This document shows, in pieces, positions 4,409 through 8,990 of a DNA stretch of 12,815 nt (positions are counted from its first letter, which is position 1; each line of letters begins with the position of its first letter). Below the pieces are notes generated by a model. The model was given only the letters and a program-made list of their open reading frames with translations, did no database searches and was not told where the DNA came from. Origin of the DNA: a bacterium (lineage in GTDB: Bacteria; SM23-31; JAUVVT01); the NCBI GenBank assembly GCA_030616165.1, contig JAUWXV010000094.1, forward strand, positions 1 to 12,815, in the 5' to 3' direction. The translations under genes were made by a program, and so were the position numbers.

Positions 4409-6298
4409 GTGTATAATGTCTTGAAGTTTTTTCATTTTCGGCGATTTGGAGTTACTTCTCTCACAGTTTTCTGTACTTTTCTCCTTTTTGTCTCGACGGT
4501 AGCTGCCCAGGATTTCTCTAAGTATCATACGTATGATGAACTAACCAGAGTGCTGAGGCTCATAGTAAATGACCACAAAAATATCGCCAAATTAGAATCG
4601 ATAGGCAAAACGCTTGAGGGACGTGATATCTGGCTGGTGGAGATTGCCAATCCAAAAGATGTTCCGGTAGAGCAGCGTCCGGCACTGTTTATCGGTGCTA
4701 ATTTTGAAGGAGATCACCTGATTGGCAGTGAAATTGCGCTTTATATTGTAGATTATCTGCTGAAAAATTACAATTCCAGTTCAGAGGTTAAGGAAAAAAT
4801 TGACAATCATGTATTTTACATTGTTCCACGCGTTAATCCAGACGCGGCTGAAATGTTTTTTGCGAACGTGAAAATCGGCCGAAAAACAAACACAAGACCA
4901 TATGATGGAGACAATGACGGGAGGATGGATGAAGATGGGCCAGAGGATTTGAATAAAGACGGCTGTGTTACGGTTATGCGTGCCAGGGATACTGAAGGGG
5001 AATATATGATTAATCCCGGAGAACCGCGGCTAATGAAGAAAGCTGACCCAAAGAAGGGTGAAACCGGCATTTATAAGCTGTACCGGGAAGGTATCGATAA
5101 CGATAAAGACGGTTTTATAAACGAGGATCCACCCGGCGGCATCGATATAAACCGAAACTTTCAGCATGAATATCCATACTACAATCCGGATGCCGGCTGG
5201 CATATGATAAGCGAACTTGAATCGCGCGCGATTATTGGCTGGATAATCGCACACCGCAACGTAGCGATTATACTCACCTTTGGAGAAAGCGATAACTTAA
5301 TCACTGCACCAAACTCCCGAGGACAGCTTGGTCCTGCAAAGGAAATCGACCTGTTTAAATTTGCAGATGCGAGTAATGATGGTGCCAGTGAAGTTGGAAT
5401 ATTCCCGACAGGACGCAGAGTATCAGGTTTTAGGGGTCCCAGGAGTCAGCCAACTCAACAGCAGCAACCACCATCAAGGGGTCGTCCTTCCAGAGGCCCT
5501 GCTACGACAGTTGACACGACTGACATCGAATATTTTAGTACAATCAGTAAAAAATATGTTGAACTTACTGGCATCAAAAATCAGCCGGTAGTGCGGAAAC
5601 CACAGGGTGCCTTCTTCCAGTACGGATATTATCAATTCGGCGTACCTTCTTTTTCAACCCCCGGATGGGGTATTCCCAGTTTAGCATCGGACAGTCTGCA
5701 GGGGCGACAGAGCCAGCGTGGCGCTGGCAGTCTCAGACCATCCGGCAGGGGACAGACTGCCGATATCGATAGCCTGTTGCTGAAATGGATGGACAGCGAG
5801 GGCGTCGATGGATTTGCAAACTGGACTAAATACAACCATCCCGAACTTGGCGAAGTGGAAATAGGCGGATTTAAACCTTATGCGGTAACCAATCCCCCTG
5901 CCGAGAAAATTGCTTCTCTCGGCGCTTCTCACGCTGGATTTGCTGTGTACTTGAGTACACTCTTCCCGCAGGTGAAAATTGCGAAAACTGAAGTTACTAA
6001 CCACAGCGGCGGCATATTCCGTATCAAGGCTGAGGTTGAAAACACAGGATTTTTACCAACAGCACTTGCTCACGGTGTTCATTCACGTTCCGTGAAACCG
6101 ACAATGGTGCAGCTCGGTATTGAGCCCGAAGCAGTCATTTCTGGCAATAATAAGACAAGTTTCTTCCAGGCACTTGCCGGTTCAGGAAAACGTCAGAAAT
6201 ACGAATGGCTTATAAAAGGAAAACGCGGTGCCAGAATTGAACTCAAGGTCGTCTCGCAAAAGGGAGGGTCTGACAAAACTACGATAACTCTGAAATAG
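4409..6298 (+). CDS. Secreted M14 carboxypeptidase-like protein, predicted inactive
   Basis: The start is GTG, five bases after AGGAGG (4398-4403). A signal peptide covers about 1-33 (hydrophobic core 15-31, probable cut after VAA). The M14 zinc-carboxypeptidase-like domain spans about 38-430, and a conserved HPELGEVEIGG motif (477-487) and a beta-rich C-terminal domain (about 521-629) follow. VFYIVPRVNPD (135-145) and the substrate-binding INRNF (247-251) are kept. Compared with the paralogue downstream, the HxxE zinc motif reads E100-G-D-H103, the third zinc His is G292 (next residue E293) and the catalytic Glu is P418, so ordinary peptidase activity is unlikely. Three DxDxDG-like loops (166-171, 180-185, 230-235) may bind calcium. 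Two disordered Q/P/R/S/G-rich inserts lie at about 336-368 and 430-450. It may bind peptides, glycans or its active neighbour; this is inference. Confidence 0.85.
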   Translation: MYNVLKFFHFRRFGVTSLTVFCTFLLFVSTVAAQDFSKYHTYDELTRVLRLIVNDHKNIAKLESIGKTLEGRDIWLVEIANPKDVPVEQRPALFIGANFEGDHLIGSEIALYIVDYLLKNYNSSSEVKEKIDNHVFYIVPRVNPDAAEMFFANVKIGRKTNTRPYDGDNDGRMDEDGPEDLNKDGCVTVMRARDTEGEYMINPGEPRLMKKADPKKGETGIYKLYREGIDNDKDGFINEDPPGGIDINRNFQHEYPYYNPDAGWHMISELESRAIIGWIIAHRNVAIILTFGESDNLITAPNSRGQLGPAKEIDLFKFADASNDGASEVGIFPTGRRVSGFRGPRSQPTQQQQPPSRGRPSRGPATTVDTTDIEYFSTISKKYVELTGIKNQPVVRKPQGAFFQYGYYQFGVPSFSTPGWGIPSLASDSLQGRQSQRGAGSLRPSGRGQTADIDSLLLKWMDSEGVDGFANWTKYNHPELGEVEIGGFKPYAVTNPPAEKIASLGASHAGFAVYLSTLFPQVKIAKTEVTNHSGGIFRIKAEVENTGFLPTALAHGVHSRSVKPTMVQLGIEPEAVISGNNKTSFFQALAGSGKRQKYEWLIKGKRGARIELKVVSQKGGSDKTTITLK

Positions 6299-6361
6299 GT
6301 GTTTAAAAAATAAGTTTGTCAAACAATATAAATTCAATAAAAATGTGGAGGAATATTACCG

Positions 6362-8149
6362 GTGAAAGTATTATATAAAGTATTTGCAAGTCTGGTAATA
6401 ATAATGTTCGTGTTTGCGCTGACCCCCACTATTATGGTCGGGCAGAGCGCATCCGATCCGCAGATTAAGGTCAAAATCGATTTTAACCGCTGGCACGACG
6501 TCCCAGAATTATATGCTGACATGAAACGCTTACAACAGGCGTGGCCCAGATTTCTCAAGTTGGAATCGATTGGCAAGAGTCACAATGGCCTGGATATTAT
6601 GGTCATGACAATTAATAATCCTGACACTGGTCCTGAAATGAGCAAAGCTGGAATGTACGTTGAGGCAAACATTCACGGCAACGAAATACAGGGTGGAGAA
6701 ATCTGTTTGTACACAATCTGGTATCTGATGGAGAATTACGGCAGAATCGATAATATTACCCGCCTGGTTGATGAACGCGTGTTTTACATTGTTCCGACGG
6801 TGAATCCTGACGGTCGTCAGTATTTTATGGAAGGAGCCGGGGGCGGAGCGCGCAGCGGACATGTCCCGGTTGACAGCGACAATGACGGTCTCTACGATGA
6901 GGACGGTCCGAATGACCTGAATGGAAATGGTGTTATTGAACAGATTCGTAAATACGTTCCTGGTAAAGGAACACACCGTATCAGTCATATTGATAAACGT
7001 ATTATGGAGCCGGTTCCATTTGGTGAAACTGGAGATTATATTATACTTGGTTCGGAAGGTATAGACGATGATGGCGACGGCAGGGTCAACGAGGATGGTC
7101 CCGGTGGGTACGATCCGAACAGAAACTGGGGGACCGACTGGCAGCCCAATTACGTCCAGGGTGGGTCGATGGATTATCCCTTCCAGCTTCCTGAAGCACG
7201 TGCGGTTAACGACTTCCTGATGTCTCATCCGAACATTGCCGGTGCCCAGTCATATCATAATTCCGGCGGTATGATTCTCCGTGGTCCGGGGGCTGAATGG
7301 CAGGGAGCATATCCCCGTGAGGATATTCAGGTGTATGATGAACTTGGAAAAAATGGCGAACGCATCCTGCCGTTTTACCGCTATATTGTGATATGGAGTG
7401 GTCTATACACGGTTCACGGCGGTTCAATTGACTGGACTGATGACGGGCTTGGCATTATTACCTTCTCCAACGAATTGTGGAGCGGCGGTCAATATTTTAC
7501 CAGTCCTGAACTCAAAGAACAACAGAAGGACCCGGAGAGTCCGATCAGCTCGCGCGTGTCCAGTTATTTCTTCGATGACTATCTTGAATTCGGCGACAAG
7601 TTTATGGAATGGAAGGAGTTCGATCATCCGCAGTATGGAAAAGTTGAAATTGGCGGTTCGTGGAGAAAGACCCGTGGACGTGTTCCGCCGCGATTTATGA
7701 ACGAGGAACTCTGCCACCGTAACATGGCATTTACCCTGTACCAGGCTGATGAAATGCCTATGATTAAAATGGGTGAAACTGAAGTGGAAAAAGTGGACGG
7801 AAATGTCTATAAGGTGTTAGTCGACATCACCAATCCGAAAGTGGCACCGACGATTACCGTCCGTGCTGCGCGGAACAAAGTAGTAAAACCCGACCTGCTG
7901 ATGCTCGAAGGCAAAAATGTCGAAGTTATATCCGCAAGTTGGATAGACAATAAAGAAGTCTATAAATACCGCCCAAGCGTGACCAATCTCATTGACCAGC
8001 AAGACCTGAAGCGAATCATAGTCCGCAGTGGACATTACGGAAAAACAACCAAAACCATACAGTATTTGGTAAAAGGCAGCGGCGAAATTAACATTACCTA
8101 TGACAGCGTTAAGGGCGGCAAAGCCACGACGAAAGTCAATTTGCGATGA
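6362..8149 (+). CDS. Secreted M14 zinc carboxypeptidase, catalytically intact
   Basis: M14 metallopeptidases remove C-terminal residues from peptides; the exact substrate here is unknown. The GTG start follows GGAGGA (6347-6352) by nine bases and 63 bases after the previous stop. A signal peptide covers about 1-29. The catalytic domain keeps zinc ligands H105 and E108 (NIHGNE) and H299 (QSYHNSGG), substrate residues in VNPDG (147-151), R164 and DPNRNW (251-256), GGSIDW (353-358), and general base E371 in FSNELW. Ca-binding-like loops lie at 171-176, 185-190 and 235-240. DHPQYGKVEIGG (421-432) leads into a C-terminal beta domain (about 466-595). It is paralogous to the gene upstream, with shared LESIGK, VFYIVP and DEDGPxDLN blocks, and was probably produced by tandem duplication. 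ThuA follows 34 bases later. It probably acts in the periplasm or outside the cell. Confidence 0.92.
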   Translation: MKVLYKVFASLVIIMFVFALTPTIMVGQSASDPQIKVKIDFNRWHDVPELYADMKRLQQAWPRFLKLESIGKSHNGLDIMVMTINNPDTGPEMSKAGMYVEANIHGNEIQGGEICLYTIWYLMENYGRIDNITRLVDERVFYIVPTVNPDGRQYFMEGAGGGARSGHVPVDSDNDGLYDEDGPNDLNGNGVIEQIRKYVPGKGTHRISHIDKRIMEPVPFGETGDYIILGSEGIDDDGDGRVNEDGPGGYDPNRNWGTDWQPNYVQGGSMDYPFQLPEARAVNDFLMSHPNIAGAQSYHNSGGMILRGPGAEWQGAYPREDIQVYDELGKNGERILPFYRYIVIWSGLYTVHGGSIDWTDDGLGIITFSNELWSGGQYFTSPELKEQQKDPESPISSRVSSYFFDDYLEFGDKFMEWKEFDHPQYGKVEIGGSWRKTRGRVPPRFMNEELCHRNMAFTLYQADEMPMIKMGETEVEKVDGNVYKVLVDITNPKVAPTITVRAARNKVVKPDLLMLEGKNVEVISASWIDNKEVYKYRPSVTNLIDQQDLKRIIVRSGHYGKTTKTIQYLVKGSGEINITYDSVKGGKATTKVNLR

Positions 8150-8183: not shown

Positions 8184-8990
8184 ATGAAGTATTTAAATCT
8201 ATTTAATAATATCAACGCCCGCAGTGTAAAAAAATCAATGAGCATTAACTGCATTGTATTCGCAGTTATAATGTTTATTGTTATTAGTCTTCTTGTTATA
8301 AATTGCGGGAATGCGCAACCGGAAACATTTAAAGTGCTTGTTTTTTCAAAAACTGCTGGATTTTATCACGGAATTATTCCCACGGGAATTGCTGCTATTC
8401 AAGAATTGGGCATGCAGAACAATTTTGATGTTGATACAACAGCCAATGCGGAACTTTTAACGGACGATAATCTCAAGCAATACAAAGTTGTTGTATTTAA
8501 TAATACAACTGGTGATGCGCTCGATGATGCTCAACAGGCAGCATTTGAGCGATATATTCAAGCCGGCAACGGCTATTTGGGGATACATGCAGCTTCCGAC
8601 ACAGAATATGATTGGGCATGGTATGGTGGACTTATCGGCGGCGCTTATTTTTTAAGCCATCCAAAAGTTCAAAAGGCAGTCATAAGGGTAGAAGACGGAA
8701 ATCATATATCTACCAAAATGCTCCCCGAACGGTGGGAATGCTATGATGAATGGTATAACTTCCGCGAGAACCCCAGGGAAAAGGTCACGGTGCTTGCCTC
8801 GCTGGATGAAAGTTCATATTCTCCCGGGAAGGGAGCAATGGAAGACCATCCAATCATATGGTGTCATGAGTATGATGGCGGCAGGGCTTTTTATACCGGA
8901 TTGGGTCATACGAAAGAGACTTTCTCTGGCCCGCTCTACTTAGAGCATCTTCTTTGTGCTATAAAATGGGCTGCGGGTGTCAGCGAATAA
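8184..8990 (+). CDS. Exported ThuA-domain protein, possible lipoprotein
   Basis: ThuA-like domains have a class I glutamine amidotransferase-like fold. The founding rhizobial ThuA acts in trehalose use, and most members, often exported and near carbohydrate genes, have no known reaction. AAGGAGG (8173-8179) lies four bases before the ATG. The 268 residues start with a long basic N-region, a membrane segment (about 22-39) and C41 in LLVINCGNAQ. This could be a lipobox with unusual Asn before Cys, or a plain signal anchor; M19 is a possible later start. The domain (about 48-264) shows KVLVFSKTAGFYHG (50-63), GYLGIHAASDT (130-140) with His where amidotransferases have a nucleophilic Cys, CYDEWYNF (186-193), and FYTGLGHTKETF (236-247). 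It is the last gene of the M14 operon, converging on the TPR-methyltransferase gene with 78 bases between. Confidence 0.87.
   Translation: MKYLNLFNNINARSVKKSMSINCIVFAVIMFIVISLLVINCGNAQPETFKVLVFSKTAGFYHGIIPTGIAAIQELGMQNNFDVDTTANAELLTDDNLKQYKVVVFNNTTGDALDDAQQAAFERYIQAGNGYLGIHAASDTEYDWAWYGGLIGGAYFLSHPKVQKAVIRVEDGNHISTKMLPERWECYDEWYNFRENPREKVTVLASLDESSYSPGKGAMEDHPIIWCHEYDGGRAFYTGLGHTKETFSGPLYLEHLLCAIKWAAGVSE

Follow-up and report, generated by a model that had tools for sequence, protein, structure and literature searches.

The 12,815-nucleotide stretch of bacterial DNA analysed here (the window) carries two adjacent homologues of the M14 metallocarboxypeptidases, ORF A and ORF B, on the same strand (Table 1). 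The zinc-binding and catalytic residues of the family are in place in B and seem to be missing from A. The question raised by this locus is whether A is a decaying copy, an enzyme with a re-built metal site or a conserved pseudopeptidase, and what such a protein may do beside an intact sister. A preliminary description, made from the window's sequence, had noted that the HxxE motif is inverted to ExxH in A and had put forward these same readings.

Pfam assigns PF00246 to both ORFs, and NCBIfam returned no family for either. ORF A scores 102.8 bits against PF00246 (curated cut-off 21.6), which also matches all 20 members of one set of A homologues (A1). The protein consists of a putative signal peptide, an M14 domain with acidic inserts and a C-terminal beta domain, in this order. 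A structure comparison with the AlphaFold model of A (mean pLDDT 72) retrieved carboxypeptidases N, T and D, of which the best match is carboxypeptidase T from Thermoactinomyces (1obr and mutants, 21% identity). Because the model matches this enzyme with a Z score of about 26 over about 267 residues, the predicted fold of A is that of an M14 carboxypeptidase. G292 and P418 lie at strand ends of middling confidence, separated by low-confidence loops. The region from the third zinc ligand to the position of E270 is thus poorly modelled, and the assignment of residues there rests on sequence. The model of B, built from 16 sequences, is of low confidence (pLDDT 58) and was left out of the analysis.

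Table 1. Features of the A-B locus, in window coordinates. CPA residues follow the bovine numbering.
Feature	Position	Strand	Basis
ORF A, M14 pseudopeptidase, probably exported (judged from its N terminus), 629 aa	4409..6298	+	residue 1 = GTG at 4409
Signal-peptide-like segment of A (residues 1-34), with AQ-D following a hydrophobic run	4409..4510	+	read from sequence
E100-G-D-H103, replacing HxxE (zinc ligands 1 and 2; CPA H69, E72); E100 at 4706-4708, H103 at 4715-4717	4706..4717	+	BLASTP, profile-profile, MAFFT, column counts
K159, likely place of Arg127 (column equated with CPA R127 by eye)	4883..4885	+	column counts
First acidic loop, DxDxDGxxDE, calcium-loop-like; Asp/Glu near-invariant in A and B	4904..4960	+	MAFFT
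Second acidic loop, DxDxDGxxxED; acidic residues invariant in A	5096..5128	+	MAFFT
NRN, N248-R249-N250 (CPA N144/R145, substrate carboxylate site)	5150..5158	+	column counts
H253, A-specific conserved residue (73/77 A; not conserved as His in B)	5165..5167	+	column counts
G292-E293, replacing the third zinc ligand His (CPA H196) and the residue next to it; G292 at 5282-5284, E293 at 5285-5287	5282..5287	+	BLASTP, profile-profile, column counts
P418, replacing the catalytic Glu (CPA E270), at a position that is P or D in most A	5660..5662	+	profile-profile, column counts
A-B gap, 63 bases; GGAGG at 6347-6351, 10 bases before the B start	6299..6361	+	sequence
ORF B, intact M14 metallocarboxypeptidase homologue, 595 aa, constant partner of A	6362..8149	+	Pfam, alignment, loci
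B zinc ligands H105, E108 (HxxE)	6674..6685	+	MAFFT, column counts
B third zinc ligand H299	7256..7258	+	HHalign, column counts
B catalytic E371	7472..7474	+	HHalign, column counts

A and B can be aligned by BLASTP over 268 residues (36% identity, E = 2e-45), and two ungapped segments bring together ANFEGDH of A and ANIHGNE of B, and TFGESDNLI of A and SYHNSGGMI of B. The profile-profile alignment of the two families (HHalign, E = 5.7e-74) sets G292 against H299 and P418 against E371, the latter two within the paired segments FGVPSFSTPGW (A) and LGIITFSNELW (B). A MAFFT alignment of 119 sequences places the residues of A against B in the same way. The alignment that underlies the loss of residues therefore appears sound, and the main observations of the preliminary description hold: the residue coordinates of E100, H103, G292, E293 and P418 are exact when residue 1 is the GTG codon, the three methods concur on the change from HxxE to ExxH and on the third ligand, and HHalign and MAFFT on the catalytic Glu. 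The GGSIDW of B is indeed lost, GAFFQY standing at that place in A, and the NRN of the substrate site is retained, all three residues being present in the window protein. By its sequence, ORF A lacks every zinc and catalytic residue and is, for this reason, very probably catalytically dead. B, judging from its motifs, is probably an active enzyme.

The acidic M14-domain inserts of A, which are found in ORF B too and hardly vary in either family, resemble calcium loops of the EF-hand or dockerin type. A structural calcium is likely kept in A despite the loss of zinc.

To see how far these losses extend, 77 A proteins and 74 paired B proteins were aligned. The A homologues come from the small phylum of the window itself, from Acidobacteriota/Aminicenantota, from Gemmatimonadota and from Bacteroidota. 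None of the 77 A has the canonical residue at H69, E72, H196 or E270; in B these positions are H in 74/74, E in 74/74, H in 71/71 and E in 68/69. The place of the first zinc His is occupied in A by E (64), S (6), D (5), G (1) or A (1), that of the zinc Glu (position 103) by H (45), Q (10), V (7), R (3), I (3), N (2), T (2), D (2) and others, that of the third ligand by G (60), S (14), D (2) or N (1), and that of the catalytic Glu by P (34), D (34), Q (5), T (2), K (1) or N (1). The likely Arg127 position is Arg in 73/73 B proteins and mixed in A (R, K, S, T, A, P and others). Asn144 is kept in 53 and Arg145 in 56 of the 77 A; the pair is lost in about a quarter of them.

Other residues are conserved specifically in A (N161, D213, F251, H253, Y383 and Y407), and N161 and Y407 occur in all 77 proteins. 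The preliminary description had named conservation among homologues as the check on its altered residues, free variation under an unchanged gene order being its sign of simple decay. E100 (64/77) and position 292 (G or S in 74/77) are kept, both at the 18th percentile of entropy in the A domain, whereas H103 (45/77) and E293 (88th percentile) vary freely. Position 295 is D or N, with Asn in 34/77. The ExxH arrangement is an old feature, because it is the commonest one in A, is found in two separate large branches and goes with parsimony root states of E at position 100 and H or R at position 103. The exact exchange of Glu and His is common and old in the A subfamily without being its defining feature, which is the loss of all four catalytic positions. 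The pocket of A gives the picture of a site that was rebuilt and held, rather than one that is drifting.

In a tree of 47 sequences, A and B each form one clade with 100/100 support, the other active M14 proteins of these genomes falling on B's side, and a FastTree analysis of 160 sequences (151 A and B) gives the same split. The pair is old and did not arise as a recent tandem copy. For A, dN/dS is 0.18 when the window is compared with its nearest relative and 0.03–0.30 for other pairs, close to the values of B (dS is saturated in some pairs), and its rate of evolution is about 1.3 times that of B. The patristic distances of A and B across 69 loci are correlated (r = 0.954; none of 999 shuffles is as high). 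This correlation mostly reflects shared descent and is expected of a co-inherited unit; contact is not provable from it alone. The loss of residues is conserved, B is constantly adjacent, dN/dS is about 0.03–0.3 and the A and B trees match. On these grounds A appears to be a conserved, ancient pseudopeptidase under purifying selection, not a product of random decay. The conserved pseudo-peptidase subfamily that had been proposed is thus strongly supported by a single clade, purifying selection, many phyla and a constant partner.

In 74 of 78 loci (58/61, and 16/17 further A loci) the gene immediately 3' of A, in the same orientation, is B; in the four exceptions a contig edge lies within 200 bases of A. 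The two open frames abut or overlap in nearly all of the 61 loci. In the window, no terminator-like site is seen in the 63-base gap, and this gap, its ribosome site and the conserved order make it likely that A and B are on one transcript. No other constant neighbour was found across the A-B loci. The ThuA-like gene that follows the pair in the window (PF06283, E = 1.2e-76; 8184-8990) was considered as part of the system and set aside because it adjoins the pair in the window only. A sortilin/VPS10-BNR gene lies 5' of A in L015, L019, L025, L106, L027, L085, L122 and other loci; it recurs in about 16 loci but was likewise rejected as a constant part, because it stands in either orientation. 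No A-B fusion proteins were seen: open frames of more than 1000 aa in GC-rich loci, taken as candidates, are by their coordinates other-frame overlaps of A and B.

A search for close relatives in the genome collection gave 19 A loci, from which the A profile was made. In the small phylum to which the window belongs, five of six genomes have A by this profile, and the sixth yields nothing but a weaker hit of the active-paralogue type. The profile also finds A in 55 of the 396 genomes that represent the phylum of G008 (an Aminicenantes genome), in 10 of 200 sampled Gemmatimonadota genomes and in 6 of 296 sampled Bacteroidota genomes. Among those 396 genomes, the B profile finds 57, of which 53 also have A. 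In the other four, A is below the cut-off (1), A is cut by a contig end (1) or the match belongs to a different M14 family (2), and the two A genomes without B at the cut-off are explained by contig ends only. A and B therefore co-occur in this phylum, the apparent cases of one without the other being contig ends, fragments, sub-cut-off A or a different M14 family. The host organisms are mostly uncultured and known from metagenome bins. Five genomes (G008, G009, G014, G234 and G282) each contain two divergent A-B pairs, both complete, which looks like duplication of the pair as a whole. Two A genes (L013:3812-6013 and L100:2469-4457) each have one in-frame TAG in a frame that is otherwise open, which is either a sequencing error or a true stop.

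Three of the explanations that compete with a conserved pseudopeptidase concern the active site itself. Simple decay, in which A would be a pseudogene-like paralogue with a drifting active site, could account for the variation at positions 103, 293 and 159 and for the somewhat faster evolution of A, but it is refuted by frames that are intact in nearly all 77 loci and by the low dN/dS. The invariance of N161 and Y407 and the presence of one deep clade in several phyla also speak against it, which leaves it a negligible probability. It is also highly improbable that the alignment is wrong and that other His or Glu residues fill the zinc site of an active A. The low confidence of the model at protein residues 240-267 and 309-365 would leave some room for this, but BLASTP, HHalign and MAFFT are concordant, ligand positions 1 and 2 fall in a core that is free of gaps and well modelled, and H253 is the sole A-specific conserved His of the domain. 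The re-built metal site suggested by the preliminary description, with E100, H103 and E293 (or H253 and D/N295) holding a metal for a new activity, would fit the frequency of E100, the presence of H253 in 73/77 proteins and the ExxH motif shared by two large branches. However, position 103 also accepts Q, V, R, I, N, T or D, E293 is one of the least conserved residues, 295 is often Asn, Pro or Asp has replaced the catalytic Glu, and A does not maintain the Arg127 place. This proposal is not supported and seems very unlikely.

The reading that we consider probable is that A is a non-catalytic partner of B with a metal-free pocket, acting as a heteromer or as a binder of the same substrate. A would be exported, as its N terminus suggests, and made from the same transcript as B. 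It would bind B directly or bind B's substrate, and shape the substrate site, stability or activity of B, which would do the cutting. A metal-free, Glu-centred hydrogen-bond network of E100 with His or Gln at position 103 probably closes what was once the zinc pocket. A keeps the fold, the acidic loops and, in most of the family, the Asn-Arg pair that binds carboxylates, so it may still hold on to peptide C-termini that it does not cut. A link between A and B is favoured because of the strict adjacency without any other constant neighbour. The same adjacency speaks against the idea that A shares B's transcript but, without forming a complex with it, binds peptides or surfaces (peptide C-termini, cell-surface polymers). 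N248 and R249, kept in most A, the C-terminal beta domain and the precedent of the vertebrate M14 pseudopeptidases, which are extracellular binders (PMC11266112), favour this idea. The loss of the Asn-Arg pair in about a quarter of A counts against it, and we regard this idea as rather unlikely. A and B might also act independently on one substrate. A bolder form of the partner reading, to which we give tentative credit and somewhat less than even chances, is an obligate heteromer in which one subunit is active and the other free of zinc. It would be the first such two-gene enzyme in M14, and the Glu-based pocket of the dead subunit would read peptide C-termini for the active one.

Pseudoenzymes as such are familiar. 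Here, bacterial proteins of one clade have lost the zinc site completely and stand beside an active sister in several phyla, which suggests a two-subunit carboxypeptidase, and the automatic annotation "zinc carboxypeptidase" (PF00246) is misleading for genes like A. A literature search, in which most subscription papers were out of reach, gave no description of a bacterial M14 pseudopeptidase or of an M14 pair. Carboxypeptidase T, the closest match in fold, is unlike A an active zinc enzyme, with no known pseudoenzyme partner.

Metalloproteases of other families offer parallels. TldE is the subunit of TldD/TldE that has no metal site, and the genes tldD and tldE lie apart in E. coli. TldD/TldE is a heterodimeric bacterial metalloprotease whose family differs from that of A-B (PMC5810440). 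The M16B pairs (alpha/beta MPP, SPH2681/SPH2682, TTHA1264/TTHA1265 and AlbE/AlbF) resemble A-B in that an active zinc subunit and an inactive homologous subunit are encoded by separate genes, which are neighbours in bacteria; their fold and family are unrelated, and the M16B heterodimer is proven by structure, whereas the A-B heteromer is one that we infer (PMC12731061).

In the 2024 review of metallopeptidase pseudoenzymes, the prokaryotic case named is an M16 operon, and the M14 pseudopeptidases of its table, AEBP1, CPXM1, CPXM2, CPD-III and Ecm14, are all eukaryotic and all keep H69 (PMC11266112). Like A, CPD domain III, AEBP1/ACLP, CPXM1, CPXM2 and the fungal Ecm14 have the M14 fold, have lost catalytic residues and are conserved in evolution; they are exported, as A probably is (PMC11266112, PMC7706225). 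Unlike them, A has lost H69, E72, H196 and E270 altogether, and its gene lies in bacteria, in a unit of two genes of which the other encodes an intact sister. CPD-III is in one chain with active domains, whereas A and B are separate proteins.
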